From positions 20,561 to 84,560 of the forward strand of contig JAKSYS010000222.1 of NCBI GenBank assembly GCA_022925895.1: a stretch of 64,000 bases of DNA, written 5' to 3'. The notes beneath the pieces are model-generated. The model searched no databases. It saw only the letters and a list, made by a program, of their open reading frames with translations, and was not told the DNA's origin. This document shows positions 10,872-62,050 of the stretch, in pieces. This stretch comes from Fragilaria crotonensis. Lineage: Eukaryota; Bacillariophyta; Fragilariophyceae; Fragilariales; Fragilariaceae. The position numbers and the translations under genes are program-made. Numbering within the stretch: the first letter of the stretch is position 1; each line of letters opens with the position of its first letter.

Positions 10872-11970
10872 ATGCTTTCCTCCGTCGCTCGCTCCCTTCC
10901 TCGTGTCGTAGTTCGTCGAGAACTACAATCGTTGTCGAAGGTAAGATCTACTCATAAGATGTAGGAAACTTGGGAAAAATGTACGATGGTTCTTCAAGTT
11001 GTTGAAACAAGTAGTTCCTCACCAACCTTGACTTCATCAACCTAAGTTCGCTGGAGAGTCGTTTCATTCTTCTGCGATTCCACCAACTCAAGTAACTGCA
11101 TCAAGTCAAGGGACGTTCACTGATTGGACCAAGAACAAGAACGCTTCCTCGAATGTTCACATTCGTTCATTCTTTTCAGGTGCAAAGGAATCCAGTGTGC
11201 CTTCTATTTCTGAAACCGAAGTGAAAGGCCTTTTCGGTCTTTGGAATGACGCCCTCGCAACGCTCAATCCAGAGACTGTTGCCAAACGTTACGCCACGAA
11301 AGCAATCCTCCTTCCAACTGTTTCTGACACTCCGCGCACAAGCTTCGATTTGATTCACTCGTACTTTGTGGATTTCTTGAAGAAGAAGCCGCAAGGCGTC
11401 ATTCTCGAAAGCAACGTGCTCCAAGGCGATGATTGGGCTCTGGATGCTGGCATATACGAGTTCACCCTCGGAGCGACCGGTGATACGGTCAAGGCCCGTT
11501 ACACGTACATGTACACGTATGAAGACAACGAATGGAAAATCTCGCACCATCATTCGTCTGTCATGCCGGAAGGCATCCCTTCGGCCCAGCCCATTACAGA
11601 CGAAGAAGTGAAGGGACTATTCCACCTCTGGAATGATGCGTTGGCTACTTTGGATTCAGACGTTGTTGCGAAGCGATACTCGAAGACTCCTGTGCTTCTT
11701 CCGACAGTTTCTGACATTCCTCGTACGGACTACAACCTCATCAAATCCTATTTCGACGATTTCTTGAAGAAAAAGCCGCAGGGTGAAATCCTCGAGAGCC
11801 ATGTTCTTCGTGGTTTCAATTGGGCTCAGGATGCAGGTATCTATGAATTTACTCTTGGTGCAACTGGGGACAAAGTGAAGGCTCGTTACACCTTTGTTTA
11901 TGTCTTTGAAGATGGAGAATGGAAGATTTCTCATCACCATTCTTCTGTCATGCCAGAAGCCAAAAGCTAA
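10872..11970 (+). CDS. tandem SnoaL/CaMKII-association-like domain protein, mitochondrial-type presequence
   Basis: Exon 1 is 10872-10940 and exon 2 is 11047-11970, separated by a 106-bp intron (AAG|GTAAGA donor, CCTAAG acceptor), both in phase 0; 330 residues. Exon 1 begins MLSSVARSLPRVVVRREL, a Ser/Arg-rich amphipathic leader with no acids before Glu17, and the sequence IRSFFSGA follows later, so mitochondrial import is likely. The rest is two very similar copies (about 120 residues each) of one domain, both with VKGLF.LWNDALATL, LLPTVSD.PRT, DFLKKKPQG and WKISHHHSSVMPE. This pattern fits the SgcJ/EcaC or CaMKII-association-domain family of the NTF2-like fold. The family includes uncharacterised and oxidoreductase-associated members; no substrate can be named. 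A broken copy lies at 13150-13690. Confidence 0.82.
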
Positions 11971-13690: not shown

Positions 13691-14464
13691 TTCTGTTTTC
13701 GCTGGTGGTAAGAATTTCCCATAGGCCTCAGAGAATTCAGTTCTCTACAGTTCCAATTCGCACGGGCGTGCTTGCAAGATTGACGTGTCTGCGCACCTTC
13801 CCAGGCGTGTCTCATACGATATGCCTGCGTGACCGTAAGTGGTATAATACCATAGTACCAAAAAAATTGGATTGCAGATTGCAGTTTACACTACCTGGTA
13901 GTATACTACAAGTACTACACTTCAGGTGATGTATCGGACTATGATGTATGCGGATGCTCGTTCTTGTTATGTCACAGATACACATCATGTGTATAGTGTA
14001 CCTCTTGTTTTCGCTCGTATGACTCTAGGCGGGAGGGTCGGTGGTTCAAACCTCGATCCTTTGTTTTGAATTCAAGTCTTGTCAACTCGTTATGCACATA
14101 GGGGAAGGCCGCTCAGTGGGAAGGAATTTGGAGGGGTTACTTCGAATCTTTAGCATACTCTGTGCTGGAATAGAATTTGAATTCAAGAATGAAATTATAC
14201 ATACATTATAAAATACATAAGAGGCGATCGTGCAATTCTCCTATAGTGACACGATCGGAAACATGTGTGGTACACGTCATGTATAGTGGAGCAATGGACT
14301 GCTTAATGTATGATGTATTCCCACTACACACAAAGGGTGCGCTTACTCGGAAGTTCGCGGAAAAAAGCTTCCTTCAATTACATTGCGGCACAAGCTAAAC
14401 AAAAACGCAAGCATAAAGCGGAAAGGGCGGCAATATTACAAGCAATCTTTGAGAGAATCTTGTG
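13691..14464. other. intergenic, promoter of long secreted protein
   Basis: No gene seen. The last 60 bases are shared with the promoter of the short paralogue. At 14041-14055 there is a tRNA B-box-like string (GGTTCAAACC), but no tRNA fold can be drawn around it. Confidence 0.45.
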
Positions 14465-17143
14465 ATGCCTCCCATGAGATTGCTACTTCTTGCTTCGTTG
14501 GCTGTATCAGTCCAATCTCAATCTCAACCTTGCTCAGTATGCGGTGATGGAAAGACGGTAGGAGCGCCGGATGCCATCTTTTCTTTCCCACAACAACCTG
14601 ACGTCCCATGTGGTCTTTTGGAACTCGCTGGTAGTCTTGGTCAGATTCCACAAGAACAATGTGGCTTCCTCCCACGTCTTGTTGCCGAGGACTGCTCTTG
14701 CCAAGGACCCTCTGAGCCTCCTGCCGTGGCAACTCCAACCGCAGCGCCAATTCCCCCTCCGACTGCTAAACCAGTACCAGATCCGACATCACCACCAGTT
14801 CCAGATCCTACCAGCGCTCCTGTTCCTGATCCTACCGATGCCCCCGTGCCAGATCCTACCAGCGCTCCTGTTCCAGATCCAACCGAGCCTCCTGCATCGA
14901 GTGCCGGAACTCCAGTTCCTCTGACGGATGCTCCTGTTGTACCTCTGTCGGACGCTCCAGTGACATCGGCTCCTATACCAGTACCGACTACGTTTCCTTC
15001 CCAAACTGCGCCAATTTCAGCTCCACCACAGGAGCCATTTACCGAGGCTCCTGTATCGACTGATGCTCCCGTAATTTTGGAATCTCCGGTATTAGAACCA
15101 AGTTTGGGTGACCTTCCAACGATCGCGCCAATGATTGTGATTGAGGAACCTCCGACATCTGCTCCTCTGCTTGTGATTGAGGAACCTCCGACAGTGGTCC
15201 CAGTTCAAGTTGTTACACCAACTTTTGCACCAGCAGCTGTCACGATTCCCACCAAACCATCGCCAGTGTACAGTGGTGATGATGACGATGGTGACGACGA
15301 TGCTGGTGACAAGCCAGCACCATCACCTGTCAAGACACCTACCAAACATTCTCCAGTGTCCAGTGGTGATGATGACGATGATGGTGAGGTACCTGCACCA
15401 GCACCAGTTCCAAGCAAACCAGCTCCAACTAAAGAAGATGCGGGTAAGGGCAAGGGTGTTGTAGACAAAAAGCCCAAGGGCAAAAAGGATAAAAAGGCAA
15501 AGAAAGAAGACGACAAGAAGGGTCCGAAGGTAAAGAAGGGAGATGATGACGACGACGATGGCAAAGGAAAGGGCAAGGGCTCGGACGGAAAGAAGGGAGA
15601 TGATGATGACGATGATGGCAAAGGAAAGGGCAAGGGCTCCGATGGAAAGAAGGGAGATGATGACGATGATGGCAAAGGAAAGGGCAAGGGTTCTGATGGA
15701 AAGAAGGGAGATGATGACGATGATGGCAAAGGAAAGGGCAAGGGCTCGGATGGAAAGAAGGGAGATGATGACGACGATGATGGCAAAGGAAAGGGCAAGG
15801 GCTCCGATGGAAAGAAGGGAGATGATGATGACGACGATGGCAAAGGTAAGGGCAAGGGCTCGGATGGAAAGAAGGGAGATGATGATGACGACGATGCAGG
15901 TAAGGGCAAGGGCTCCGATGGAAAGAAGGGAGATGATGACGACGATGATGGCAAAGGAAAGGGCAAGGGCTCTGATGGAAAGAAGGGAGATGATGATGAC
16001 GACGATGATGGCAAAGGAAAGGGCAAGGGCTCGGACGGAAAGAAGGGAGATGACGACGACAACGATGGAAAAGGAAAGGGCAAGGGATCCGATGGAAAGA
16101 AGGGAGATGATGACGACGATGATGGCAAAGGAAAGGGCAAGGGCTCGGACGGAAAGAAGGGAGATGATGACGACGATGATGGCAAAGGAAAGGGCAAGGG
16201 CTCGGACGGAAAGAAGGGAGATGACGACGACGACGATGGAAAAGGAAAGGGCAAGGGATCCGATGGAAAGAAGGGAGATGATGACGACGATGATGGCAAA
16301 GGAAAGGGCAAGGGCTCGGACGGAAAGAAGGGAGATGATGACGACGATGATGGCAAAGGAAAGGGCAAGGGCTCTGATGGAAAGAAGGGTGGTGATGATG
16401 ACGATGATGGCAAAGGAAAGGGCAAGGGCTCCGATGGAAAGAAGGGAGATGATGACGACGATGATGGCAAAGGAAAGGGCAAGGGCTCGGACGGAAAGAA
16501 GGGAGATGATGACGACGATGATGGCAAAGGAAAGGGCAAGGGCTCTGATGGAAAGAAGGGTGGTGATGATGACGATGATGGCAAAGGAAAGGGCAAGGGC
16601 TCTGATGGAAAGAAGGGTGGTGATGATGACGATGATGGCAAAGGAAAGGGCAAGGGCTCTGATGGAAAGAAGGGTGGTGATGATGACGATGATGGCAAAG
16701 GAAAGGGCAAGGGCTCTGATGGAAAGAAGGGTGGTGATGATGATGATGATGGCAAAGGTAAGGGCAAGGGCTCTGATGGAAAGAAGGGTGGTGATGATGA
16801 CGATGATGGCAAAGGAAAGGGCAAGGGCTCTGATGGAAAGAAGGGAGATGATGACGACGATGATGGCAAAGGAAAGGGCAAGGGCTCGGACGGAAAGAAG
16901 GGTGGTGATGACGACGATGATGGAAAAGGAAAGGGCAAGGGCTCCGATGGAAAGAAGGGTGGTGATGATGACGATGATTCCGGCAAGGGCAAGGGCTCAG
17001 CCGAAGGAAAGGGCGTCGGCCCTAAAGGAAAGAAGGGCGATGATGACGATGGCGACGAAGGAAAGGGCAAAGGAAAGGGCTCTGAAACAAACATTGGCGA
17101 TGACGATGATGACGATGACTACAAATTAAAAACCGGCGAGTAA
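14465..17143 (+). CDS. secreted protein with Cys-rich head and K/G/S/D repeat tail
   Basis: 892 residues from the ATG at 14465. Layout: signal peptide (MPPMRLLLLASLAVSVQS); Cys-rich head with CxxC-x22-C-x16-C-x10-CxC spacing; Pro/Thr/Asp repeats of the form VPDPTSAP (about residues 95-150); a Pro/Ala/Val/Thr-rich linker (about 150-320); a Lys-rich segment; then about 25 copies of a 19-21-residue repeat made of GKGKGKGSDGKKG plus a run of Asp. It ends in an Asp-rich tail. The tail is a polyampholyte with alternating Lys and Asp blocks. Diatoms use Lys- and Ser-rich or acidic secreted proteins in silica cell walls (silaffins, silacidins), so a wall or extracellular-matrix role is a reasonable inference, but I know of no proof. 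A short paralogue lies at 12318. Confidence 0.85.
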   Translation: MPPMRLLLLASLAVSVQSQSQPCSVCGDGKTVGAPDAIFSFPQQPDVPCGLLELAGSLGQIPQEQCGFLPRLVAEDCSCQGPSEPPAVATPTAAPIPPPTAKPVPDPTSPPVPDPTSAPVPDPTDAPVPDPTSAPVPDPTEPPASSAGTPVPLTDAPVVPLSDAPVTSAPIPVPTTFPSQTAPISAPPQEPFTEAPVSTDAPVILESPVLEPSLGDLPTIAPMIVIEEPPTSAPLLVIEEPPTVVPVQVVTPTFAPAAVTIPTKPSPVYSGDDDDGDDDAGDKPAPSPVKTPTKHSPVSSGDDDDDGEVPAPAPVPSKPAPTKEDAGKGKGVVDKKPKGKKDKKAKKEDDKKGPKVKKGDDDDDDGKGKGKGSDGKKGDDDDDDGKGKGKGSDGKKGDDDDDGKGKGKGSDGKKGDDDDDGKGKGKGSDGKKGDDDDDDGKGKGKGSDGKKGDDDDDDGKGKGKGSDGKKGDDDDDDAGKGKGSDGKKGDDDDDDGKGKGKGSDGKKGDDDDDDDGKGKGKGSDGKKGDDDDNDGKGKGKGSDGKKGDDDDDDGKGKGKGSDGKKGDDDDDDGKGKGKGSDGKKGDDDDDDGKGKGKGSDGKKGDDDDDDGKGKGKGSDGKKGDDDDDDGKGKGKGSDGKKGGDDDDDGKGKGKGSDGKKGDDDDDDGKGKGKGSDGKKGDDDDDDGKGKGKGSDGKKGGDDDDDGKGKGKGSDGKKGGDDDDDGKGKGKGSDGKKGGDDDDDGKGKGKGSDGKKGGDDDDDGKGKGKGSDGKKGGDDDDDGKGKGKGSDGKKGDDDDDDGKGKGKGSDGKKGGDDDDDGKGKGKGSDGKKGGDDDDDSGKGKGSAEGKGVGPKGKKGDDDDGDEGKGKGKGSETNIGDDDDDDDYKLKTGE
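15540..16990 (+). repeat. about 25 in-frame 57-63-bp coding repeats
   Basis: Head-to-tail units such as GGCAAAGGAAAGGGCAAGGG + CTC + GATGGAAAGAAGGG + a (GAT/GAC)n run. Units differ mainly at synonymous sites, in the length of the Asp run (5-7 codons) and in a GAT/GGT switch (D to G) shared by a block of late units, which indicates recent unit duplication and homogenisation. The coding strand is almost pure purine for 1.45 kb. The lack of stops in other frames here is a by-product of the repeat, not evidence for extra genes. Confidence 0.95.
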
Positions 17144-27470: not shown

Positions 27471-29533
27471 TTATAATGTATGTTGGCAGCACGGTGTGCT
27501 ACCTTCTGGTACGCCATCGCTGTCACCATGGTCGAGAGTAACAGAGCCATACGATGTCGCGTTCGACGACTCACTACCAGTTGACGGCTGGTCTGGATGA
27601 TGAGGACAGCACGAGTTGGTTTGCACTCCAGCTTCGGCTCTGACATCCTTGGAGGGCGGCATCTTTGCAGCAAAGACAGCATCCTTGGCATTAAACAGAA
27701 TGTGGCCGCCAACAATGCCCAAGATGATACACATAAAGAGAGGACCTGAATAAGTCATAACGACCAACATGGCAAAGTACCCAATGGTAAGTTGGAGGCC
27801 GTAAAACATGGCGGAAGCAGCTAATCGACGGTAGCCTGCTCCCATGGATGATATGACCATGCGTCGACGCATGATTACAGCCTCCAAAAAGACGCCGACG
27901 ACAAGTGAGCCAATGGCGGCTGCCACAAACTTGCCCTCGGTATTCAAGACCCATTCCGGAAAGAGGTAAATGACACACACCGTGTCCATCCAATGGAAAC
28001 CATCCATGTACATGGAAGTGCCACCGTAGCAAAATGGTTCTTTGGCAGAGTTGGTGGAATTGTAAACGACGGATGTCGAGGGGACACCGGGCACCGTAAA
28101 TTGCCAACTGCCCATGCATTTGGCGTTGTGGACACCATAAGGGCATTCTGCAACGGCCTGTGCTACATCGTGACCCGATGTTGACAATGCATTTGGGTCA
28201 AGGCAGTATAACGAGTATCCCGAAGTGACGTATGATTCGGCACGATCCGCATTCGGAATGTCGAGACAACTCATCCAACAAAAAAAGTTGGTAGAATTGT
28301 TACAGTCGCCTGGGCTTCCAACCATTTGCAGGCGGCGGCGCGAAGGTACAATCGGAAATGGCAGTTTTGAAAAGTTCGGAGGCGAGGCAGCACTGGCCGA
28401 TCCGCATCCAATTGAGATGGAATCGGAAGTGTCACCTTGTCCGTATACTCGCTTGGAGGAGAGTGTCATCGACTGCTTCATTTCACGAAACGTTTTTGGA
28501 GGAGATTCCTGAATGATGGCACTTTCAGGAACCAAGTGCACTGTATTGGAAGGAATAAGATCAGGAACAGAATATAGAGAAGCATTGACGTTGGATCCAT
28601 TTGGTGACACTTACTCATTCCGTACCACGCTCGTTCGTCGCCCTTTTGCATGGTCACAGCGTGCCGAGTTGCTCTAAGTGGTACAGGAGAATGCAGCCAA
28701 TGTTCCGCCCCAGCACCGAGCATGATGGCAATAGAGTTTGGTTGAAATATCGCTCTCGTGCTCACGCCGTCTTCATCCTTGAACCAGAACGATTCGTCTG
28801 CATCGTGGTCACCAGTCGTAGACTCTCGACAATTCAAGGCAGGAACGAATGCAAGAAAGAGTCCAGCATCAGAATGCCAGTCCAAAGACGATTGTTCATG
28901 TGCACTCTTCTTAGAATACACGTGGAAATGTTCAAGATGATTTCCAGCCTTGACGATGGATGCCACACGATCATACGAAAGACCCTTGGAATCGCGCAAT
29001 AGCACCGAGCTGTAGTTGTTGTTATTGTTGCTGCTGCCGCTGTCACGAATCAAACGGTCCAAAGCGTCGACAAAGGCATCTGCAGCAACCGCAACTTCAT
29101 CACGAATCTGCTCCATGGAAGTTGCCGTATCCAGGCCACAATATTGTGCAAGATTTGTAGGAAGAGGACGAGGCGTGTTTCCGGCAGTCGCGGTTGCCAC
29201 GGTGGTTCGTACCGTGCTTCCGTCGTCCAGTAGTGCAGTGTCCGAGTTATCAACCTGTAAGAGTTGATTTTCACATCGACAGAGCCCATCGAGAGCGGCA
29301 TGTCGAAACATATTGTTGAAGGATGATGATTCAATAGACAAGAGACCAGTTGTCTTGAGGATAGTGGCAAACTCCTCAGATCGCTGATTCGAAAGGAGGT
29401 CCTGCAAGCTAAAGGAAGGGACAATTCTCTCTCCCGCTTGCGGTGGCATTCCTTCAACAGTTGAGAAGCATATGCTTGCTGCAGTCACCAACAGCAGCTT
29501 AAACAACGAGGGTATCATTTTGGATTGGATCAA
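27471..29533 (-). CDS. 2OG-oxygenase-like ectodomain fused to a Ctr copper transporter
   Basis: Exons 28615-29533 and 27471-28540 are joined across a 74-bp intron (ATGA|GTAAGT, CCAATACAG|TG, phase 1), giving 662 residues and the junction WYGM-M-HLVPES. Part 1: signal peptide (MIPSLFKLLLVTAASICFS), then a domain with WHSDAG (His220, Asp222), a distal His291 in RATRHAV and Arg301, the HxD...H...R pattern of Fe(II)/2-oxoglutarate oxygenases. Part 2: a Cys-rich linker (CNNSTNFFCWMSC and others), then the Ctr/SLC31 module with MYMDGF (about 483), MLVVM (MxxxM copper site, about 564-568) and GIVGG (GxxxG, about 581-585), three membrane helices, and a cytosolic tail with CCPHH and CCQH metal motifs. 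It should import Cu(I) at the plasma membrane or another membrane. Whether the oxygenase-like part is active or only binds metal is unknown. The two parts could be read as separate genes only if the intron were ignored. Confidence 0.78.
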
Positions 29534-42229: not shown

Positions 42230-44523
42230 TCAAGCGGCGGACATGGCGGTGATGGAGTGTGGAACCGGGGACTTGGTCAACGAATCTGCGGAGTTCACGA
42301 CGCCAGGGATATGGGAGAGGACAATCTCGTTGGCAGCTTTCCATTCTTGGAGGGCAAAGTGTTGAATGTCGATATGGCGAGCACGCGGCGTTGGACGACT
42401 CGCGTTTACCATCAGGATGGCCGCAGCGTTATCCTCGAACAACGTAGTCGGACCAATCTGAGGGTACCCAAGTTCCGAAAGGATCGACCGAAGGTACTTG
42501 GCAATCTTGGCGGCGTGGACAGCAGCGAGGAGTTCGGCTTCGGTGGAGCTGGTGGAAACCGTTGACTGAATCTTGGACTTGTAAGCCAAAGGTCCGCCGC
42601 AGAACATAAACACAAGCCCAGTGATCGAGCGGCGCGTGACAAGGTCCGTTGCATGCGCGGCGTCGACATATCCAGCTAGCTCGACCGAGGAATGTGGTTG
42701 CGGGAAGTCAGGAAGAGTCGGATCGGGAGTGAGAATCTGAAAATCACCATGTGGAAGCGTCGATAAAAGCACGGATCGCCAGTAGAGTAAACCCCAATTT
42801 TTCGTCATGCGTAGGTACCGAGCGACACGACGTAACGCGTTGTAGTGCACTTTCGCCGGATGATCGGAGAATCGCGCGAGCGTCGTGACCGCGTACCCGA
42901 TGTCCGGGCGAGCAACCACATAGGCATAAATTAATGCGCCCAAGACACTTCGATACGAAAACCCAGCAGCCGTTTCCAGATCACAATATTCGGGAGTTCC
43001 GTCACGAGGCGCAGTGGTGTAGTCGTCGAACATTTGTTGCGTCGTTGAAGCGGCGAGAGGCTCAATGGGCTTTGCATCCGTCTCGTGTGATCCGGAGGAC
43101 AACCAGCCGTAGTGCGCGAGCAGTTTGTCGATGTAGGATTCGCATGTGATTTTGATATATCGGTCATATATGCTGTTCGACGTCGACGCCATTGAAAGAA
43201 TCCAAAACGCCTTCGTCACGGAGGTCGATACCGTCTTCCGAGCAGATGACGCGCACAAGGTCTCTGATCGCGTCGGGGTCGACGCAACCGATGGCCAAAT
43301 CGTCGACTTGACGACAGATGAGCATGCGATGACCCTTGTATTCACCTTGGTAGAGGCTTCGCTCATGGGTTGTCGAAGTGAAACCATGACGAGCGATGAC
43401 GGAATTTACAAACTTTTCCCAGAGCGCCCCAGATTCCGGATGACCTTGAAGGGCATGTTGGACAGGGAGCACCATGTCGCGAGATATGGCAACTTTGTAT
43501 CGGGCAAGATACCAATCGGCGTACTGATCGTCGATGACCACAAAAGTTGGTTGATTCGGTGGCGGTGAGTTCGCATATGCGTTCGTCGCGTCCACTTTCA
43601 GGCTGACATAACCCTCGTGGGCGCATAGAGCAAAGAAAAGGCGCATACAAGGTTGTTCAATGCAGCTAGAATATGTGTTAGCCAACTTGAGCTGCGGGGC
43701 TGCGCGAGGGGAACCGTCGCAGCAATTTCTTGCCTTCCGAGTGCCGTCGCCTTTGATGGCATAGTTCCAGTGCTGTCGGAGTGCGATGGCATCTCTGGGT
43801 GCGGCAACGGGGACGCCATACATTTCTTGTTTGGCCATCGAATCGAGCTGCTTGAACTCGGCATTCTGCCATTCCTTCCAGTTTGGGAGGCGTCGGAGCT
43901 TGCGTCGAGTGAAACTTCCGAGGCCTTGTTCTTCGGGAGTCCCATGCGTCGTCGTATTCAGAGAGCGAAGGAGCAACTGGGCATGGTCATCGTCAAAGTT
44001 GCTGTCGTCGTCACTGTTGAATACGATATCGTCGTCGTTTGGCGCTTCCGATTGCGGGAGGGAGGACAAGATGACGGAGACCGTACGCAATTGTTCCACA
44101 GATAGATGGATCGGCTGGTCGAGATGTCGATCGGCGACTGGAATATATCGGTCCGGGGCGAAAACAATCTTGAACGTTTGTTCGTCCGACGCGGCTGCAG
44201 CTCGGAGTGCATCCAAGATGGATGCCGCAGTGAACACAGCGACGTCATTGATGGACACAACAAAGGCGCCGATGTATTTGCGGCGAACATTCCTGATTCG
44301 CCAGGCCGTGGTATTTGCAACGACACCAGAAACATACCCTCGTCTTGAATGTGACACTCCATGATCTCGAAGCCGAGGCAGGGATGCTCGCAGGTGATGG
44401 GCGAGGACAATTCGTCGAGGCGCTCGAAAGGATCGTCAGAGACTTCCAGATTGAGAAGAGGGAGATCCATGCGATCGGGGTCGATAACGCCATCATCAGC
44501 AAGGTTCCGGAGGAGTTTCACAT
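42230..44523 (-). pseudogene. element 1 pol C-terminal part: reverse transcriptase and RNase H
   Basis: Three frames of one polyprotein. 44523-44345 joins integrase to RT; 43164-44350 holds the copia RT (GSFTRRKLRRLPNW, MYGVPV, LKVDATNAYANS, PVQHALQGHPESG, and the catalytic box CRQVDDLAIG); 42230-43190 holds the end of RT and RNase H (LAGYVDAAHATD, STSSTEAE, FEDNAAAI, PRARHIDIQHF). In the catalytic box the usual YVDD reads QVDD. Shifts at about 44340 and 43178 separate the pieces, so no full-length enzyme is made without recoding. Confidence 0.9.
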
Positions 44524-47500
44524 TAGGGGCGGTTCATCCAGATCGTTCATCCCCTCGTCGAAACGTGCATGGGTGGCGGTCTTGACGGTCGAGCTGCCAA
44601 GGTCGAAGTAATACATGACCTTCAGGGAGCGCGAGTATCCGAGAAAAATACCGAGGCGGGAGTTTGGAACGACGCGACCGTATCGAGCAGCCGTTGGACG
44701 AACGTGGATGCGACATCCAAAAGTTTGACGCTTCGCAAGGTTTGGGAGCGGAGCACCACACATCTCGTACGGACTTGAAGGTCGATCGCCGTGGGGAACG
44801 AAGTTGTACAAGCGAATGTAGTGGTAGAACGCATACGGCCAGAAGTTGGGCTGGAGGTTTGCGCCGGAAAGCATGGTGCGAAGAGCATCTCCGATCGTCT
44901 GATGTGGACGCTCTCCAGGTCCATTCTGGTGCGACGAGTCTGGACCGGTCAGTTCCACGGCATATCCAAAGTTCGCAAACGTACGATGGATGTCGCGACA
45001 CTTTCCGAGCTCACCGCCTCCATCCATGCGGACATACTTGTCGGGACATTGTGGAGAGTTGCTGGCGAGCCAGCTGTTGATCCAATCGACGGGAGGTGCT
45101 TTCGTTGCAAAGGCGCGACCAAAGATTCGACCACTGAAGTGATCAGTCAGAAGGACATAGCACGTTTCGCCGTTACCAAAATCAATCGACAAACCTTGAT
45201 TGCACGCCGTTGCTCGCATCGTAGTTCCAATTCCTTTCGGTGCCTTGCGGAGTTTGGCAGCAAGGCATATGGGACATCCTTCAAGCTCAGTTGGGATCTG
45301 GAACTGCGGCATCCCTTTTATGAAACGATGCATTTCCGACAACCGGCGAAAGTTGATGTGCCCGAGACGTTGGTGCCATAGCATTCGCAGAGCCGAACGA
45401 CTCAACGAGCGCACGGCATACGCTTCCGTGGGGACCGCCGAGGAGAATTCCGGGAAGTGAACGTCGCCGTCCAAGATCGTTGGGCGTTGGGCAAGGAGAT
45501 CTTCTGAGTGATGGCCTTCATGGCTTGGGTGATCCATGTCGACCCTGGCGGGGACAACGAAATTGAGACCTGCCGGAGCCATGCCTTGTCCATAAACGTA
45601 AGGCCTTGCGTTGCCGTCAGGTGAGACGGGCAGCATGTCAGAATCCGAAACAGGTGGAGAATGACAGGCGTCGCAGGTCATGCCATCGATGGGATCAAGG
45701 ATCGTCGCAGCAGTGGCAGGAGCATGTTCGGTGCACAGTTTCCGAACGACTTGACCCGATGGTAGCGGTTCCAAATGAGCCTTCGATGTTGGAGCAATCA
45801 AGGTGAATGTGAGGCCGCCGCGGCTCGCCGTCGGCTGCAAGATGATGTAGATATCCTGTGAGCGGCGGAGGCGGTGCGGAAAGTGAATGTGTCCGGCTGT
45901 CTCGGTGAAGCTCGACATGTGATATCCATCAGTGCCGAGCTGCTTTGAAATAGCCGCGTGGGAAATGATGATTCCTGGAATCGTGGGAGTGTAGTATGTC
46001 CGAATGAATACGGACGATGGGCCTCCGGCATTTCCACGATTATCAACCGGCACACACAGGAAACCGACGCCAACAGGTTGATGCGCATGGTGGCCCGCAT
46101 CAAAGAGGCGGACGTTGGTGCAAGTGAGAGGGCGGTAAGCAAACAGGAGCTTGTGGTCGTTGGCGGTGCAAGCCATTGACCCATTGTCGGCATGAGCGAA
46201 CGAGAGTTGGCGTTCGCGGTCATACGTTTCAGCCAGGCGACGAAGCAGGATGGGATCTGGAGCGTCGTTGATGTGGATAGTCTCGGACGCGGGGAGTCCA
46301 GGGATCATATCGGCAACAGGGACGGTGACGGAGTTGGTGCTTGGTACGGCGAAGCATGCCTCGAAGTCGACCTCCTCGGCGGCGGTGACACAGAGGGAAT
46401 TCTGTTGGAAGCCGATTAAGTCGTCTTCGTCATCGTCGTCGACCTTTTCATCGATGGCAGGGACCTCAACATTGGCCGGCTCATGTTCCAGGATGCGACG
46501 CATGGTCCGGGTGGTGGAGGGCGTTGGGCGACCACGGGCATTGGCTGAGTTCAGGCGGCTGCGAAACTGCTTGTGCGAGTTCGCGATCTGAGCTTTGAGC
46601 TGGGGATTGCGTTGCGTCAAACCTTCGGCGACGATGTAGTCGACGAAGCGGTTGCAGTCTTCCAGTTCATGACCCGGCAATTGACAACCGAGACAAACAG
46701 AGGACGCATCTTGGTTCTGGGAAATGGCACGAACCATCAGGTTGATTTCTTCGTCGTCGAGGGTCGTTGCGGACACGGACGACGAGAAGTCAGGCGACGC
46801 GGTTTCGATGCGCCGAATGATGGACGTCGGTGTTCTTCCCGTCGATGCATGCTGCGAGGACGGTGGATCGCGGCCGATCTCGGATGCATACTCGACGAAT
46901 GTCGTCGCGAGTTGCGCCAACGAGAGTTTGAACGGGAGCGCGCCGTCATGGCCGGTGCGCTTATCACGTTCGACTAGGCGTCGGATCTCGGGACGCCATT
47001 CGGACGTCAGGTTGCGAACGGATAGGTCGAGGGCCTCCGATTCGGTGTACGTGCGAGTGGCTTGGCGCTCACGCACCATGAAGTCCTGAAGCCGGCGGAT
47101 ATACAGGCTGAAGGGTTCGGTGCGGCGCTGGCGAGGAATCTTGCTGGCGGTTGAGAAGACAGAATGGAGAAGGGGGTGGTGTAGGCGGAACAGCGAGTAC
47201 ACCACATGATAGCCCGCTTGAGGGGGACAACCTTCAACTGCACTCTGTTCTCTGGAACCAGTTGGAAAAACGGATTCCTGAGTGAGGGCAGTGTAGATCA
47301 ATCCCGACATAAACGAATCCTTCTCACGAACGGAGGCAGGTAGCCAAGTCCACCATTTTCCATGGATCGAATCTTCCTCTGCGGATTCGTATGGTGGACA
47401 CCAAACCCCCCATTGGAGACAAGTTGAGCAAAACAGCTTATACCAATGGACGAACGAATCGTTTTTCGAAGAGTCAAACTTTGGGATGCTTGCTTTGCAA

Positions 47501-48348
47501 AAATCCTTGAACTTCACGTCATCACACATGAATTGGCACATGTAGTCTTCAAAAGACTCGGCGCCGAAGGTCACTTCGGCCGAGAAGGGATGCATCCTGG
47601 TCGGTGTCCGTGTCAAGATTCCAGCGCGTGTCGTGTTCGTCGAGTTGAACAATGGGCGAACGGGTGCGCTATCCGGGGGAGTCTGGAAACGACCGGCAGT
47701 GATTGGTGGTCCATGGCCATCGGTGGGTTGGGTGTCAATTGGGTGTCCTCGAAAAGTCGGTGCGACTGCGACGGCGGGTCTTGTGGTCTCGCCGACGTTA
47801 ACACTTGGTCCGACGGGCGTCGCGTCATTCGTGGCGGGCTCCGTAGCGAGGGGGACATCGACAAGGATGGACGTGTCAATCACTGATGGCGGGCCCTGGC
47901 GAGAACGTCGAGAGCGGCTTCCATGAACGCTGTCGGATGCGGTAGAGGATCCGGGGGGTTTTGGAATGTTGATGTCCGGGATCAAAAAACGGATCAAGAC
48001 GGGGACATGGACCATGTCCGAGGGTTGAGAACGATCCTTGAGGCGCTGGATGATCAATCGTTGCAGCGCGGGCTTTCGCAACGATATGATGGAGTTGCGA
48101 TCGCGTGCATGGTACATACCAAAACCGGGATCGACCAATGTTTGCAATAAGTCCTCCGACAGCCAGGTTGTGTCTTGGAGTTGCTGGAGGACCGACTTGC
48201 GAATTTCATCGTGATAGGTTTCACGAAGGGACATGGTAAGAACGTCGAAGACTTCTGTGAGTGGGATTTCTGCCATTGGGCAGTCCACAATGTCGATGGT
48301 GATCACAAGACAGTCATCATCGTGTCGAATCTCCTCAGCGTTCACCAT
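44518..48348 (-). CDS. element 1 gag-protease-integrase polyprotein
   Basis: 1276 residues. The N-terminus carries an acidic motif shared with the other elements (VDCPMAEIPLTEVFDV). Then come the gag core, a CCHC zinc knuckle (CLGCQLPGHELEDC), an aspartic protease with ADNGSMACT (usually D-S/T-G), and integrase: WHQRLGH and CPICLAAK form the HHCC zinc site, and the catalytic triad is SIDF, RMDGGGE and PGER. It stops at LDEPPLM, where the related element 4 keeps going; the loss of one C in a C-run at about 44528 explains the stop. Confidence 0.92.
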   Translation of the reverse strand: MVNAEEIRHDDDCLVITIDIVDCPMAEIPLTEVFDVLTMSLRETYHDEIRKSVLQQLQDTTWLSEDLLQTLVDPGFGMYHARDRNSIISLRKPALQRLIIQRLKDRSQPSDMVHVPVLIRFLIPDINIPKPPGSSTASDSVHGSRSRRSRQGPPSVIDTSILVDVPLATEPATNDATPVGPSVNVGETTRPAVAVAPTFRGHPIDTQPTDGHGPPITAGRFQTPPDSAPVRPLFNSTNTTRAGILTRTPTRMHPFSAEVTFGAESFEDYMCQFMCDDVKFKDFCKASIPKFDSSKNDSFVHWYKLFCSTCLQWGVWCPPYESAEEDSIHGKWWTWLPASVREKDSFMSGLIYTALTQESVFPTGSREQSAVEGCPPQAGYHVVYSLFRLHHPLLHSVFSTASKIPRQRRTEPFSLYIRRLQDFMVRERQATRTYTESEALDLSVRNLTSEWRPEIRRLVERDKRTGHDGALPFKLSLAQLATTFVEYASEIGRDPPSSQHASTGRTPTSIIRRIETASPDFSSSVSATTLDDEEINLMVRAISQNQDASSVCLGCQLPGHELEDCNRFVDYIVAEGLTQRNPQLKAQIANSHKQFRSRLNSANARGRPTPSTTRTMRRILEHEPANVEVPAIDEKVDDDDEDDLIGFQQNSLCVTAAEEVDFEACFAVPSTNSVTVPVADMIPGLPASETIHINDAPDPILLRRLAETYDRERQLSFAHADNGSMACTANDHKLLFAYRPLTCTNVRLFDAGHHAHQPVGVGFLCVPVDNRGNAGGPSSVFIRTYYTPTIPGIIISHAAISKQLGTDGYHMSSFTETAGHIHFPHRLRRSQDIYIILQPTASRGGLTFTLIAPTSKAHLEPLPSGQVVRKLCTEHAPATAATILDPIDGMTCDACHSPPVSDSDMLPVSPDGNARPYVYGQGMAPAGLNFVVPARVDMDHPSHEGHHSEDLLAQRPTILDGDVHFPEFSSAVPTEAYAVRSLSRSALRMLWHQRLGHINFRRLSEMHRFIKGMPQFQIPTELEGCPICLAAKLRKAPKGIGTTMRATACNQGLSIDFGNGETCYVLLTDHFSGRIFGRAFATKAPPVDWINSWLASNSPQCPDKYVRMDGGGELGKCRDIHRTFANFGYAVELTGPDSSHQNGPGERPHQTIGDALRTMLSGANLQPNFWPYAFYHYIRLYNFVPHGDRPSSPYEMCGAPLPNLAKRQTFGCRIHVRPTAARYGRVVPNSRLGIFLGYSRSLKVMYYFDLGSSTVKTATHARFDEGMNDLDEPPLM

Positions 48349-54341: not shown

Positions 54342-57300
54342 TTATTGGAACTCATGCGGTACACGGTGAAGACGGTCTATGGCATATCCGAGAAATCATA
54401 CGGTGGCACACCAGTAGCACCATTGTTTGGCACGGGGCAAGGCAGTGGAGCATCACCAGCGGTTTGGCTCACCTTAGTGGTTTTGATGCTCAATACATTA
54501 GACCGCGTAATACCGGACCGCATCAGCTTTCGATCGGCGGATGGTTCAATCGCTCATAGTAGGTTAGTCGATGCATTTGTCGATGACACAGCTCTGGGAT
54601 TCACGGACGACGGATCTCGATCTTTCGAGGAACTAGTGACGACCCTAGAACAAATAGCACAAACATGGGAGAAAGTATTACATTTCTCCGGCGGCGCGTT
54701 GAATTTGAGCAAATGCTCGTGGTACGCAATGGTTTGGGACTGGCGGAAAGGCCGACCGCAGTTGCGCGAAATATTACCGACTGATAAGGAGGTTCAGTTG
54801 ACTCAAGGATCAGGTTCCATACCAGTGACTATAAAACGACAAGAACTGAATCAGTCCACCAGAATACTGGGAGTTCACCAAACCCGTTGGGAGACTTCAC
54901 GGATCATATTGAGTTCTCAAGACAAAAGCCGATCAACTTTCAAGATATCTAAAGTCTCCCCGACTGCAACCGTCTGATATCAGAGTTTTCCACAAAACTG
55001 TATACATCCCGGCAATGAAGTATTCACTACCCGCACTGGCAGTTGACGAGGAAGAACTTGGGAAGATCCAGACAAAGATAATTCCGACCATCGTACAACG
55101 ACTCGGACTGAGCAGCAAATTGCCAACAGCAATACGTCACGGACCGATATCAATGGGGGGACTTGGACTCATGGATCTCCGAACGGAATGCGGGATTGAG
55201 ATGTTAAAAACGTTCCGTCACGCGGTTCATCGCAACACAGAAGTGGGAAAGCTTTTCATCCTTCAGGTACAAACATCGCAATTGGAGTCCGGTATTCCGA
55301 ACCCAATACTCGAGGAACCCAACCGTCCGATACCATACCTTACTCCAAACTGGGTGCTATCTATGCGACAGTTTATGTCGAATCATAAGAACATTACCAT
55401 TACACTCACCAACTCAAATGCTCCGACGCTTAACAGTCCAAGAGACAAGTTCATCATGTTCCTCGAGGCATTATCGGCATATACCACCGCTCAGCAAAGA
55501 GACATCAACCTTGTCCGAATGTATCTCCAAGTCTGTACCTTGTCCGACATGACTGATCCACAGAATCCACATCACATAACGCAGTGGGCCATACAGGCCA
55601 ACCGACCAGAAGGCTTCGAATCCCAATCATGTTGGCCACGTCAAAGCGATCCCAGCGCAACCCAACGTCGACTTTGGCGTCGGTACATCACGTCTCAATT
55701 TCTTCGCTACGGCAGGCTCTGGAAACGACCACCAAGAGCGACTCTCAAGGAGCTGAACTCTGATTGCAAACGGGACGAATCGGAGTCCTCGACAGAGGGA
55801 GTTGCAACTCTAATCAAACGACTTCCTCATGGTAAACGACGACTTCTCTCACATATTCAACAGACAGTAACTGACGACACATTATGGAAAGCATTGCGTG
55901 AGAAACAATCCATCACAGTGGCATCTGACGGGGGGCTAAAAGGAAATAAAGGTACGTTTGGGTGGCAAGTGCGATCATCGTCAGACGAGGTCCTAGCCGA
56001 AGGAGCGGGACCCGTTGATGGACCCTTCGACGTGGCAAATTCGACAAGGTGCGAATTGGGAGGCTACGCCTCTGCCCTCCTCTTTTTATCGCTTCTTCAC
56101 CGGGCGTGGGGTGTCGACATAGGTGCAAGCTACGATGGGTCACCGATAGCAAGACGGCAATCTCCAACGTGACAAAACAACTACACCCAGAAGCAAATCG
56201 GAGCACTAAACAACCAGACAATGCCGACTATCTGGCGATCATAAAGGCCGGTAATAGGAGTATCCGAAGAATAGCAAAACCAGTGTGGATAAAAGGGCAT
56301 CAGACAGTACCAACGGCAGGCGCTATATCTACCCGCAGAACCCAGGACATAATTAGCAACAACCGCGCCGACTACCTTGCAACATGGTACCGCGATCAGT
56401 CAGGAAAGAGGCAAGCAAGGGAACGAACAGATCACGTTGACGAAGCACAGATCTCAATTTCAATTAACGGAAAACGGTTGGTAAGCCAAGTGGAGTCCTG
56501 CATACGATATCATATCAACGGTTATCATCTTCGACTATATATACAGGCAAAGAATAGGTGGAGCAACACCACGTGGGATAAACTGGATTTAGAGGGATTG
56601 GGAGCCTATCATACCAAGTTACCTGCAAACGCTCAAATTACGCATACGAAGTTCATGTTCGATCAATGGCACACAGGCGACAGAAGACATAAAGTTTCGG
56701 CGATCAAAGACAACACCCTGTTACTGTGTCCATGCTGCCGAGGAGAACTCGAAACGACAACTCACGTTCTCCAATGTAAAGCAAATCCCGAACGAACGAC
56801 CAGCATAAAAGCGTTCAGAACTACCATGGCAAAACAGGAGTACCATCCTGTCTTCCGAGTCCTAATGATCAGCGTGCTCGCTTGGCTCAACAAGGAGACT
56901 GACGTGATCGATCTAGCGGAATTTCCATCAAAATTTCGGCTAGGGTTACAACAGGCATTACAGGATCAGGACAAACTCGGGTGGGAACAGGCGATCAAAG
57001 GCTTCGTGAGTGTGGAATGGCGACACTTATTGACTTTAGGCATGGGGGATAACGAGAGCGAACCGGCGAGAGTGGGGATGCAAAGACTGCGGTTCGTGCT
57101 GAAGACTTTCAGTCAATTAGCATCATCATTGTGGACGGCGAGGAATCAAGCGCACGGGACAACAGAGGAAGGTATGAAGGCCATCAGACAGGAGGAGGTA
57201 GCTGAAATCAGCCGGATGTACCAACAACCAGAGCTGATATCGGCAACTGATCGTCACTACTGCGAGCAACCATTGAGTGCGATACTGAAGAAATCACCAG

Positions 57301-57575
57301 CGTCGCGCAGACGCTGGCTCAGATACATGAGAATGGCGAGGGCAAGGTTCACAAGGGACGGAAAAAGGCAAATGTTAATAACGTCATTCTTCAGGGTCAA
57401 TCACAGTTGAGTCAGTCACGGACGGTAACGGGACTCAATTCACATGAGGGTTAGGTATTAGATAAGTTGCCGCGATTCCGCACCGCGGTCTCGCCACAAC
57501 GGGGTACACTCATCGGCCTTGACAAAAGACCGTTGGCGGTGACAACCCTATAATTAGGTTTGATTTATTTATTTA
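54342..57575 (+). mobile_element. 5'-truncated non-LTR retrotransposon (LINE) inside element 4
   Basis: 3234 bases between two exact 18-bp target-site copies. The 3' end finishes in a short TTTATTTATTTA tail. The 5' part, including any endonuclease and the N-terminal half of RT, is missing, as is usual for incomplete reverse transcription. It lies opposite to element 4. Confidence 0.93.
54345..57410 (+). pseudogene. LINE ORF2 fragment: RT, RNase H, CCHC
   Basis: The RT part has FGTGQGSGASPA and the catalytic AFVDDTALGF (about 54345-54980). After two shifts (about 54877 and 54918) the frame 54920-56135 runs through VYIPAMKYSLPALAVDEEEL and ISMGGLGLMDL to RNase H (ASDGG, TRCELGG). One more shift (about 56127) leads into WVTDSKTAI, NNRADYLATWY and a CPCCRGELETTTHVLQC finger. 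The RNase H has all four acidic residues. The C-terminal 200 residues are not recognised. The RT plus RNase H plus Cys-finger order recalls the I/R1-like clades. Confidence 0.88.
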
Positions 57576-57593
57576 TAGTGAGGGCATCCGCGG
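57576..57593. repeat. LINE target-site duplication, right copy
   Basis: Exact copy of 54324-54341. Element-4 coding sequence resumes directly after it. Confidence 0.95.
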
Positions 57594-58400
57594 GGTTGAT
57601 AATACCGGGGATATGGCAAAGGATGATATCGCCATTCGACTTCCACTCTTGGATGGCAAAGTGCTGAATGTCGATGTGACGAGCTCGAGGAGTTGGGCGA
57701 CTGGCGTTGATCATAAGAATGGCGGCTTCATTGTCCTCGTATAAAACGGTTGGCCCGGATTGAGTGTAGTCGAGTTCATGTAAGATAGAACGGAGATACT
57801 TTGCAATCTTGGCGGCATGGACAGCAGCAATAAACTCAGCTTCGGTAGAACTGGTGGACACAGTCGACTGCACCTTCGATTTGTACGCAATGGGTCCGCC
57901 ACAGAGCATGAACACAAGACCAGTTATGGATCGTCGAGTCGTCAAATCGGTGGCGTGGGCGGCATCGACATATCCGGCGAGAGTGGTGGGCAAAAGCGGT
58001 TGCGGAAAACTTGGTAGGTCGGGGTCAGAGGTCAGAGCGACAAAAGTCCCCATAGGCAAAGAGAGGATGGGGGTCGGTCGCCAATATAGGAGACCCCAAT
58101 CTTTCGTCATTCGAAGATACCGAGCGAGACGTCGAAGAGAATCGAAATGAATCTTGTTTGGGTGATCTGAGAATCGTGCGAGCAAAGTGACAGCGAAACC
58201 AATATCGATACGGGCCACAACATAGATGTAGATAACAGCTCCGAGAACGCTTCGATATACAAATCCGGCGGCGGTCTCGAACTCTTGCAAAGTACTCGCG
58301 TCAGCATTAGCGTTAGCCTCGTAGTCTGAGAAGAGTTGCGGGATCGTCGAGAGCGAGAGGTTCAATAGGCTTCTCGCTGGATTCGTTTGATGCTGCGGAC
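57594..58400 (-). pseudogene. element 4 RNase H
   Basis: Holds LAGYVDAAHATDLTTRRSITG, STSSTEAE, YEDNEAAI, PRARHIDIQHF and IPGIINPADALT, then is cut by the LINE. Its proper end (HYRHVRRMMGHYAVP) lies beyond the LINE at about 54230-54310. A one-base loss near 58345 separates it from RT. Confidence 0.88.
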
Positions 58401-60345
58401 GACCATCCGTAGTGTGTGAGGAATTTATCAATATAGGATTCACACGTTATCTGAATGTACTGTCGGGTCTGTTTTACGTCGATACCGTTAAACGAGCTAA
58501 GTACCCCTTCGTCGCGGAGATCAATCTTGTCTTCGGAGCAAATGATTGCCACTAGTTTGCGGATGGAATCGGCGTTAACGCAACCGATGGCAAGATCATC
58601 CACTTGTCGCGAAATGAGCATCTTGAATCCATCAAAACTGCCGGTGTAGATGCTACGTTCATGCGTCGTTGAAACGAATCCGTGTCGGGATAAGACTTTA
58701 TTGAGGAAACGTTCCCATAAGGAGCCGGATTCGGGATGGCCTTGTAGTGCGTGTTGAACTGGAAGCACATGGTCGCGAGAGATGTCTATTCCATAAGTTG
58801 TCGCGTACCAGTCGGCGTATTGTTCATCGATATAAACGAAGGTTGGTTGGTCCGGCGGAGGTGAGTTGGCGTAGGCGTTCGTAGCGTCAACTTTGATGAT
58901 GAGATATCCTTCGTTGGCGCACAGGGCAAAGAAGAGGCGCATAATCGGTTGCTCAATGCATGACGAGTATGTGTTGGCAAGTTTCAATTCGGGTGCTGCG
59001 CGAGGAGATCCGTCACAACAGTTGCGTGCCTTCCTTGTTCCGTCGGACTTGATCGAATAGTTCCAATGTTGTCGAAGGATGATGGCGCCGGGAGGCGGAT
59101 GAACCGGGGAGCCATACATTTCTTGTTTCGCCATGGAGTCGAGTTGTTTCGATTCCGCTTGGAGCCAGTCGTTCCAGTTGGAGAGTCGTTTGAGTTTACG
59201 ACGAGTGAATCCACCAAGCGCTTGCTCTTCCGTGGTCCCAAAAACAGTAGTATTAAGAGAACGCATCATGATGAGAATCTGGTCATGTGACATGGGCTCA
59301 TGAATGGTAGCGTACCCGGGCTCCGGTGCTGCTGGGATGGGGACAGGAAGAGGAGGGTCGAGAATGGTCGAACGCAGAGAGTTGATGACGGACAGCTGGT
59401 CAACTGAAAGATGGATAGGGTCGTCGCGTGGGCGATTGTGAACAGGAATGTAACGGTCGGGAGCAAACACGATGGTGACAGACGGGGCGTCGGAGGCGGC
59501 CACGGACATCAACGCGGTGACAATCGAATCGCAGGAAAAGACCGGGGTATCATTCACGGAAACGATGAAAGCACCAATATATTTGCGACGGACGTTGCGA
59601 ATACGAGCCGCCGTAGAACTGGCGACGATGCCGGAAACATATCCGCGTTTGCGGATGTGACAAGCCGTGATGTCAAAGCCAAGTGAGGGATGGTCACATT
59701 TAATGAGTTGAGTGACGGTGTCCAACCGATTGAAGGGATCATCGCTGACCTCGAGATTCAAAGGGGACAAAACAGGACGCTCGGCGGGAATGGAACCATC
59801 GAGAGAGAGGTGGCGGAGCGCGAGGACATCCGGCGGGGCATCCGTATGAAGGTCATTCATACCTTCATCAAAACGCGCATGAGTGGCAGTTTTGACGACG
59901 GCGCTGTGCAAGTCATAATAGTAGAGGACTTTCAGGGTACGGGAGTAGCCCAGAAAAATGCCGAGGCGCGAATTGGGAACGACACGACCATAGCGAGCCG
60001 TGGTAGGGCGTACATGGACACGGCATCCGAACGTACGAAGTTTGGATAAATCGGGGAGTTCACCGCCGCACATCTCATGGGGACTGGAAGGGCGTGAGCC
60101 GCGTGGGACAAAATTGTACAAGCGGACATAGTGATAAAAGGCATATGGCCAGAAAGCAGGACGGAGAGCCGCGCCAGATAACATAGCACGAAGTGCGTTC
60201 CCAATAGTTTGATGGGGGCGCTCTCCTGGGCCATTTTGGTGAGAGGAATCCGGACCAGTGAGCTGAACTTGGTATCCAAAATTGGCGAATGTCTCTCGAA
60301 TCTCGTGGCATTTACCGAGTTCACCCCCACCGTCCATGCGAACAT
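58313..60345 (-). pseudogene. element 4 integrase C-terminus and reverse transcriptase
   Basis: 674 codons open: the MDGGGELG catalytic box and PGERPHQTIGNALR of integrase, then GGFTRRKLKRLSNW, IKVDATNAYANSPP, PVQHALQGHPESGSLW and ISRQVDDLAIG of RT. The RT box reads QVDD as in element 1. It lacks the integrase zinc finger and first Asp, which lie in other frames to the right. Confidence 0.9.
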
Positions 60346-62050
60346 ATTTGCCGAGACAAGCCGGGGTATTATTGGCGAGCCAGCGGTTTAACCAATCAAC
60401 AGGGGAGCTTTGGTTGCGAAAGCACGACCATAGATACGCCCACTGAAGTGATCAGTGAGCAGAACGTAGCACGTTTCACCATTGAGGCCCACGAGGTTAT
60501 CGAAGCGCAGAGTCGGAACTCTTCTGAACCATGAACGCGAAGTCAATAGAGAGCCCTTGGAGGCATTGCGTTGCAACCATGATAGATATAGAGCCACGAG
60601 GAGCTTTGCGGAGTTTGGCAGCAAGACAAACGGCGCAATTGTCGGTGATATCGGGCATGGGAAGCGCTGGCAGGCCGCGAGTATGACGATGAAGCTCGGA
60701 CAAACGTCGGAAGTTGAGGTGACCGAGACGTTGATGCCATAGCAAAGAGGGCAGGACGGCTGAGGCTGCCGACAAGGAGATCATGGGTGACGGAAGAGAA
60801 CTCGGGGTATCGATCCAGAGAATGAAGCAGAGACAGGGAAGCAACGGGCGTGGGGAACGTGAGGGACAACGGAGCAAGGGACGTGGTGGAGATGGCGCTC
60901 GCAACGTAGCGATCGGCGGAACGTGGAAGAGCTGCCGATTGTTCGGCGGTGGTTGGGATATACAACGCAGGTGTAAATGTCAATCCACCGCGGAGATGTG
61001 TGGGTTGCAGATGAACGAACGTATCGAATGTGAGGGCCGTAGGGTTTCGGTGCGGAAAGCGAATGAAACCGGTGTCGTTATCCGAACTCGTCATGCTGTA
61101 GCTCACAGCGGCCAGTTGTTTCGCGATCGCACAGTGGCTGATGATCACTCCGGGGATCGTCTCGGTGTGATAGGTGCGAACGAATAAGCAGCATGGTGTT
61201 GGTATGACTGCATCCGATGACGTCATGGGCGGCTGAGATGGCAAACGATAAGCAGGGACGCGGAGATACCCGACGCCGCTGGGGTGATGCAGGTGACTAC
61301 CAGCATCAAAGAGACGGATACGTGTTTGATGTGGTAAGAGGGGGCGGTATGCGTAGAGCAAAGTAGCATCACTGGTGGTACACGCCATGGAGCCACTGTC
61401 GGCGTGTGCATAAACGGCACGAGCCTCGGAATCATACGTGCCGACCAAGCGTCGGAGCAGAAAATCGTCATGGTCAAACGGTGCGTTCTCGAGGGAGAGA
61501 TCATCGAGTTGGAGGGACGGCGCGTTGACGGAATCAAACATCGGGGACTGCAGAGAGGGGATGAAACACGTACGTAGGTCGACGTCGGAGAAGCAGACCT
61601 CAAAATCCTCGTTATCAAGATCAATACGTGAACCACGGACAGCGTTAACTTGGTAGCCATGTTTAGACTCGAGGTCATCGTGTTCCTGTTCGGCAAGCAT
61701 GAGAACATTACTATCAACGGGGTCGATAGGAACATTGTCATGATCCGATGATGATATCAGACTACGAACGGCACTGGGACGTGGGCGCGCATCGCGACCG
61801 TTATTGATGCGACTGCGGAATTGGGAGTGCGCCGACGCAACCTGTGCACGCAATTGAGGATGACGTTGTGCCAAACTCTCGGCCACGATGTAGTCGACGA
61901 ATCGATTACAGTCTGTCAGAGTATGGCCGGGTTGCTGGCATCCCAGACAGACCGCAGAGTTCGCCTGATTCGTAGACATAGCATGTACGAGGAGGTTGAT
62001 CTCATTATCACCCAACGTGATGTCGGTACCGTGGAGGAATTCGTCCGTAG
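60346..62050 (-). pseudogene. element 4 zinc knuckle, protease and integrase N-terminus
   Basis: The main frame (60543-62015) has CLGCQQPGHTLTDC, the protease site ADSGSMACTT, and a long spacer. The integrase zinc finger WHQRLGHLNFRRL...CAVCLAAKLRKAP reads in a second frame (60500-60780), and GETCYVLLTDHFSGR in a third (about 60480-60390). Three or more shifts break this section. Confidence 0.85.

Follow-up and report, generated by a model that had tools for sequence, protein, structure and literature searches.

A diatom gene predicted to join a divergent oxygenase-like domain and a cysteine module to a Ctr copper channel

Does one gene of the diatom Fragilaria crotonensis join an enzyme-like secreted domain to a copper channel and, if so, what might such a protein do? 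The question was raised by a first-pass annotation of the window analyzed here, a stretch of 64,000 nucleotides of contig JAKSYS010000222.1, in which a 74-bp intron was proposed to link an oxygenase-like domain to a full Ctr module in a single 662-residue protein. Our analysis recovered both the intron and its join as described. This is a minus-strand gene, with a start ATG at 29518, a stop at 27471 and one 74-bp GT-AG intron (28614-28541) whose ends, GTAAGT...AATACAG, bring together WYGM and MHLVPES. The spliced product from this ATG has 657 residues; the length of 662 is obtained only by beginning at a TTG at 29533, from which the upstream frame is open and which adds five residues. Based on the reading frames, exon 1 (28615..29518, minus strand) encodes a signal-peptide-like segment and the oxygenase-like domain up to WYGM. 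The signal-peptide-like segment comprises residues 1-23 (29450..29518, minus strand), with a hydropathy peak of 1.76 at residues 1-19 and a cleavage site placed by eye. Exon 2 (27471..28540, minus strand), delimited from its frame, Pfam and a profile of related host proteins, encodes a cysteine module, a linker, the Ctr domain, a Cys/His tail and the stop.

The join was compared with all in-frame GT-AG pairs having a donor between 28768 and 28477, an intron of 40-399 bp (the proposed intron being 28541..28614, minus strand) and a product of at least 600 residues. Scored with a three-paralogue profile, the proposed join ranked first among these 36 candidates (114.5 bits), ahead of a runner-up with the identical acceptor (106.6 bits) and of the unspliced product (84.0 bits). 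Among the 20 of the 36 candidates that were listed, no other donor came as near to consensus as its GTAAGT.

The C-terminal half was the more readily identified. Pfam PF04145 (Ctr) matched exon 2 with an E value of 9.4e-13 and 49.4 bits, above the cut-off of 25.3, and a PDB sequence search matched the Ctr part to a CTR1-cytochrome chimera (E 3e-05). In addition, MLVVM-x12-GIVGG (residues 559-580; 27705..27770, minus strand) is by pattern match an exact instance of MxxxM-x12-GxxxG, which the accessible part of one paper gives as the Ctr signature (PMC9502191), so that the description of this half as a full Ctr module holds. The protein resembles the Ctr/COPT family further in having MYM directly ahead of the first Ctr helix (28005..28013, minus strand, read from the sequence) and Cys/His motifs in its tail (CCPHH and CCQH). 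Its hydrophobicity may accommodate three helices: a 19-residue hydropathy scan picked out residues 506-531 and a longer segment, 545-591, which the simple scan did not split but which has room for two helices, fitting a 1+2 arrangement. It differs from that family, whose N-termini are described as Met/His-containing in the available portion of the same source (PMC9502191) and are typically short, in its ectodomain of ~480 residues made up of the oxygenase-like domain and the cysteine module. Taken on sequence, the evidence supports a Ctr half that carries this ectodomain together with a predicted Cu(I) channel module. A search of the whole host genome (62.1 Mb, 881 contigs) gave three Ctr matches at E<=10, two of which lie inside the fusion gene (E 1.8e-7 and 0.059). 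The fusion gene was the only convincing Ctr found by this six-frame, intron-blind search, in which four first-look candidates were scored and which a strongly split or diverged Ctr could escape. The third match, on contig C133 (E 2.1), was chance-like on inspection.

The N-terminal domain has relatives in the same genome, where a search with it returned six further places at E<=10. Two of these, L003 and L004, are long genes with open frames; three more (L005, L006 and L008) are closely related, apparently broken copies, and L007 is a short relic; a short degenerate relic on contig C843 resembles residues 243-289. L005, L006 and L008 are situated on contigs C273 and C578, and the same retroelement-like fragment adjoins both L005 and L006, suggesting segmental duplication. 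L003 and L004 each read without an intron from the oxygenase-like domain, by way of WYGRMVLxPxDAxHP, to a cysteine module containing CWHxCM. The counterpart in the fusion protein is divided by the intron, with WYGM closing exon 1 and HLVPESA...CWMSC situated in exon 2. A profile of the region downstream of WYG, built from four paralogue pieces alone, scored 25.5 bits on residues 301-475 of the fusion protein, split over two segments (5.0 and 18.5), whereas none of 2000 shuffles exceeded 7.7. The module (C347, CWMSC at 389-393, C414 and C434; 28143..28406, minus strand) has its cysteines invariant in all four aligned sequences, an alignment that represents about three lineages and not four independent ones, since the sequence in its fourth row is that of a broken copy similar to L004. 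Exon 2 therefore opens with a module that is continuous with the oxygenase in the paralogues, and the fusion has support beyond the one splice on which the first-pass annotation had taken it to rest: the intronless paralogues back it as well. With the proposed join ranked first and the similarity to these paralogues continuing beyond it, a single predicted fusion protein is well sustained. The cysteine module between the halves, and the membership of the oxygenase-cysteine core in a multigene family with differing C-termini, are additions to that annotation.

The identity of the N-terminal domain was more difficult to establish. Searches of family members against Pfam and NCBIfam gave no meaningful match to it, the stray matches being to urease gamma (the best, E 0.026, in one member), DUF3641 and a Leptospira N-terminal domain (E 0.026-0.15), and hmmscan with PF03171 gave no match in any of the four members tested. 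In the PDB, the best match of an N-domain profile was unrelated (E 1.1), as were two chains returned by a single-protein search (E 0.13 and 0.65). A single-sequence AlphaFold2 model of the exon 1 domain had a mean pLDDT of 33.8 and was unusable for fold. Profiles were compared within the host genome, using a DIOX profile made from the whole frames of seven of its ten PF03171 matches; L025 and L028, two pieces of one place on contig C483, were left out, as was L024, whose picked frame was not an oxygenase. HHalign aligned the family profile to the DIOX profile over 73 columns with a score of 38.7 (P 1.5e-4, probability 51%), compared with a best score of 24.4 in 300 column shuffles and 14.9 for the reversed alignment. 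The fusion protein by itself scored 22.0 (P 0.035), inside the shuffle range, with the same positions aligned. In a global alignment, a GIVSITN-like segment near the N-terminus falls on GFFQIVN of the DIOX proteins; in oxygenases of this type PF03171 comes with the DIOX_N domain.

Two further host profiles served as controls, both made from the match plus flanks in place of whole frames. The P4H-type profile (PF13640; 11 of 49 matches in the genome, 16 loci fetched) gave a score of 13.1 with the family profile (P 0.53), and a P4H-type identity was not supported; a peptidase C1 profile (6 of 14 matches, 12 loci fetched) gave 16.9. The P4H-type control separates subtypes and says little on remoter kinship, since that profile itself scored just 19.1 against the DIOX profile.

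The alignment also bears on the active site. The HxD...H...R motif had been read in WHSDAG (residues 214-219) and RATRHAV (282-288), and H215, D217, R282, H286 and R296 are each invariant in the four aligned sequences. In the HHalign alignment, H215, D217, H286 and R296 coincide with the residues that bind iron and carboxylate in the DIOX proteins. H215 and D217 (28868..28876, minus strand), aligned with the HxD of the host DIOX-type oxygenases, are likely Fe(II) ligands, and H286 (28661..28663, minus strand), aligned with the H of HRV, is the likely distal ligand. In this alignment H286 falls at the distal histidine and R296 at the arginine, which makes R296 (28631..28633, minus strand), in ERxWYG at the RxS place of the DIOX proteins, the likely arginine for 2-oxoglutarate in preference to the arginine of RATRHAV. 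Three further histidines, H194, H197 and H199 of HLEHFH (28922..28939, minus strand), are likewise invariant in the four sequences and, from their position ahead of HxD, may be near the active site. We thus regard the N-terminal domain as probably a non-haem iron oxygenase of the IPNS/DIOX type, divergent in sequence and with an active site that seems complete; the oxygenase reading is sustained by the family profile and its aligned motifs, the fusion protein alone being not significant. It is like the IPNS/DIOX-type Fe(II)/2OG oxygenases (PF03171) in the alignment of its HxD...H...R positions, whereas it differs from them in falling below Pfam detection, in having RxW for RxS, in its predicted secretion, in the extra HLEHFH and in the added cysteine and Ctr modules.

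What the fusion protein does can be proposed more tentatively. Our main reading, to which we give a probability of roughly 45%, is that one gene encodes a surface protein, composed of a signal peptide, an IPNS-type oxygenase, a cysteine module and a Ctr channel, that serves most likely in copper acquisition. The N-terminus of Ctr proteins faces outside, for which reason the ectodomain would be situated outside the cell. There it would bind Fe(II), and the tethered oxygenase would act on a substrate beside the channel. A copper-holding ligand at the surface would be bound, or altered by oxidation, by the oxygenase or its cysteine module, and Cu(I) would then be released or passed on at the channel mouth. 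The parts of this proposal that the sequence supports are the arrangement of the gene, its Ctr signature, the core of oxygenase and cysteine module that the paralogues have in common, and the conserved HxD...H...R. A role in copper uptake fits with the fusion gene being the only convincing Ctr that we found in the genome. The scarcity of 2-oxoglutarate expected outside cells counts against the proposed role of the oxygenase. A more specific version, in which a copper importer has a built-in IPNS-type enzyme that breaks or modifies organic copper ligands and delivers the copper straight into the Ctr pore, we consider quite improbable; IPNS itself oxidises a thiol peptide.

A precedent for an oxygenase-like surface partner of Ctr exists in fungi. 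In the available text of two papers, Cryptococcus is described as having an LPMO-like surface protein that acts with Ctr1 (PMC9258870, PMC7924993), reported in the first as a GPI-anchored copper-binding protein of limited homology to LPMOs (PMC9258870). This protein, Cbi1/Bim1 (X325, LPMO-like), is similar to what is predicted for the fusion protein in being at the surface, in having an oxygenase-like fold and in partnering a Ctr importer. It is dissimilar in being a separate GPI-anchored protein with a copper His-brace that is not an iron oxygenase, and in those parts of the sources no fusion is described (PMC9258870, PMC7924993).

Of the other explanations, the likeliest makes the core an enzyme of general use at the surface or in the cell wall, its C-terminal anchors being interchangeable, in which case Ctr would be mainly an anchor, or a channel turned sensor, and the substrate, a wall protein or glycan, would be unrelated to copper. 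This we regard as somewhat unlikely. It draws on the diversity of the paralogues beyond the cysteine module, all read by eye: L004 ends in a hydrophobic, GPI-signal-like tail, L003 has ~240 extra residues with a Lys-rich end, and stretches rich in Lys or PTRK occur in L005, L006 and L008, with the likely active-site residues kept whatever the C-terminus. (The C-terminal part of L003 resembled DOMON by eye, an assignment dropped because a Pfam search to E 10 returned nothing.) The core looks like a secreted unit joined to exchangeable surface-attachment or working modules, and the enzyme need not concern copper, since Ctr matches are absent from paralogues that share this core. Against this stands the intact Ctr signature, as a protein part used just for anchoring would have no need of the selectivity motif; that signature and the fusion gene's being the only Ctr found favor the copper-uptake reading modestly over the general surface enzyme.

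It is unlikely that the ectodomain is instead a metal binder and no longer a catalyst, with HxD/H, HLEHFH and the cysteine module gathering copper (or iron) for the channel. The invariance of the HLEHFH histidines and of five cysteines in the four aligned sequences is consistent with such a role, for which Cbi1/Bim1, characterized in the accessible part of its description as an LPMO-like copper binder that works with Ctr1 and is without the usual redox activity (PMC9258870), would be a parallel. However, the carboxylate-binding position R296 is likewise invariant, and a pure metal binder would not need it. Highly improbable is a pair of genes or transcripts, a secreted oxygenase that keeps the intron and a Ctr made from a downstream ATG: the frame that retains the intron stays open for 351 residues counted from the TTG (346 from the ATG) and ends without Ctr in a hydrophobic stretch, but splicing gains 30.5 bits over the unspliced product and exon 2 starts with the cysteine module to which the oxygenase is joined in the paralogues. 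That hydrophobic end is encoded by the pyrimidine-rich tract of 28541-28614 and is probably a by-product of it; if the intron-retained form were real, it would be a membrane-tethered short version of the oxygenase.

Other features of the window and genome were recorded. In the window, two fragmented copia-like retroelement copies were recognized by eye on the minus strand (42230-48348 and 57565-63673), with gag, integrase-like, RT and RNase H-like frames, and reverse-transcriptase and RNase H-like frames resembling a non-LTR element on the plus strand (54345-57410). The region 14462-17143 encodes a secreted-looking, highly charged protein with many GKGKGSDGKKGDDDDD repeats (by eye), possibly wall or silica-associated, and a frame at 11197-11970 consists of two similar tandem halves of ~125 residues each, presumably SnoaL-like. 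Outside the window, the host genome has 19 silicon transporter matches at E<=0.001 (best 4e-193), compared with one match, below the cut-off, in 14 control genomes; these matches mark the host as a diatom. One open frame of 1456 residues on contig C97 (29749-33762) contains three silicon transporter units in head-to-tail order, and a frame of 1008 residues on contig C771 (21664-24330) contains two. Tandem-fused SIT genes are known in araphid diatoms, for example Synedra.

A pattern search for relatives of the protein gave 88 matching stretches in viral contigs and 37 matches in bacterial and archaeal genomes, none of which was confirmed as a relative. No Ctr-oxygenase fusion was described in the titles and abstract openings among the matches listed, in which subscription literature is thinly covered. 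Each half is of a known kind; their combination, like the core family, appears new relative to the databases consulted.

Copper in the open ocean is predominantly bound by strong organic ligands. In marine microalgae, high-affinity copper uptake is attributed to CTR together with cupric reductases, with reduction obligatory in one diatom tested, and the accessible part of this source stresses reductive release of copper ahead of uptake by CTR (PMC9502191). A built-in ligand-processing enzyme, if it is true, would give diatoms a route to ligand-bound copper beside reductase-dependent uptake, and an enzyme-like domain within a copper channel would be a concrete, testable candidate for another way of freeing copper. 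In addition, the core family, unmatched in Pfam here, groups diatom proteins that look secreted and whose C-termini are exchangeable.
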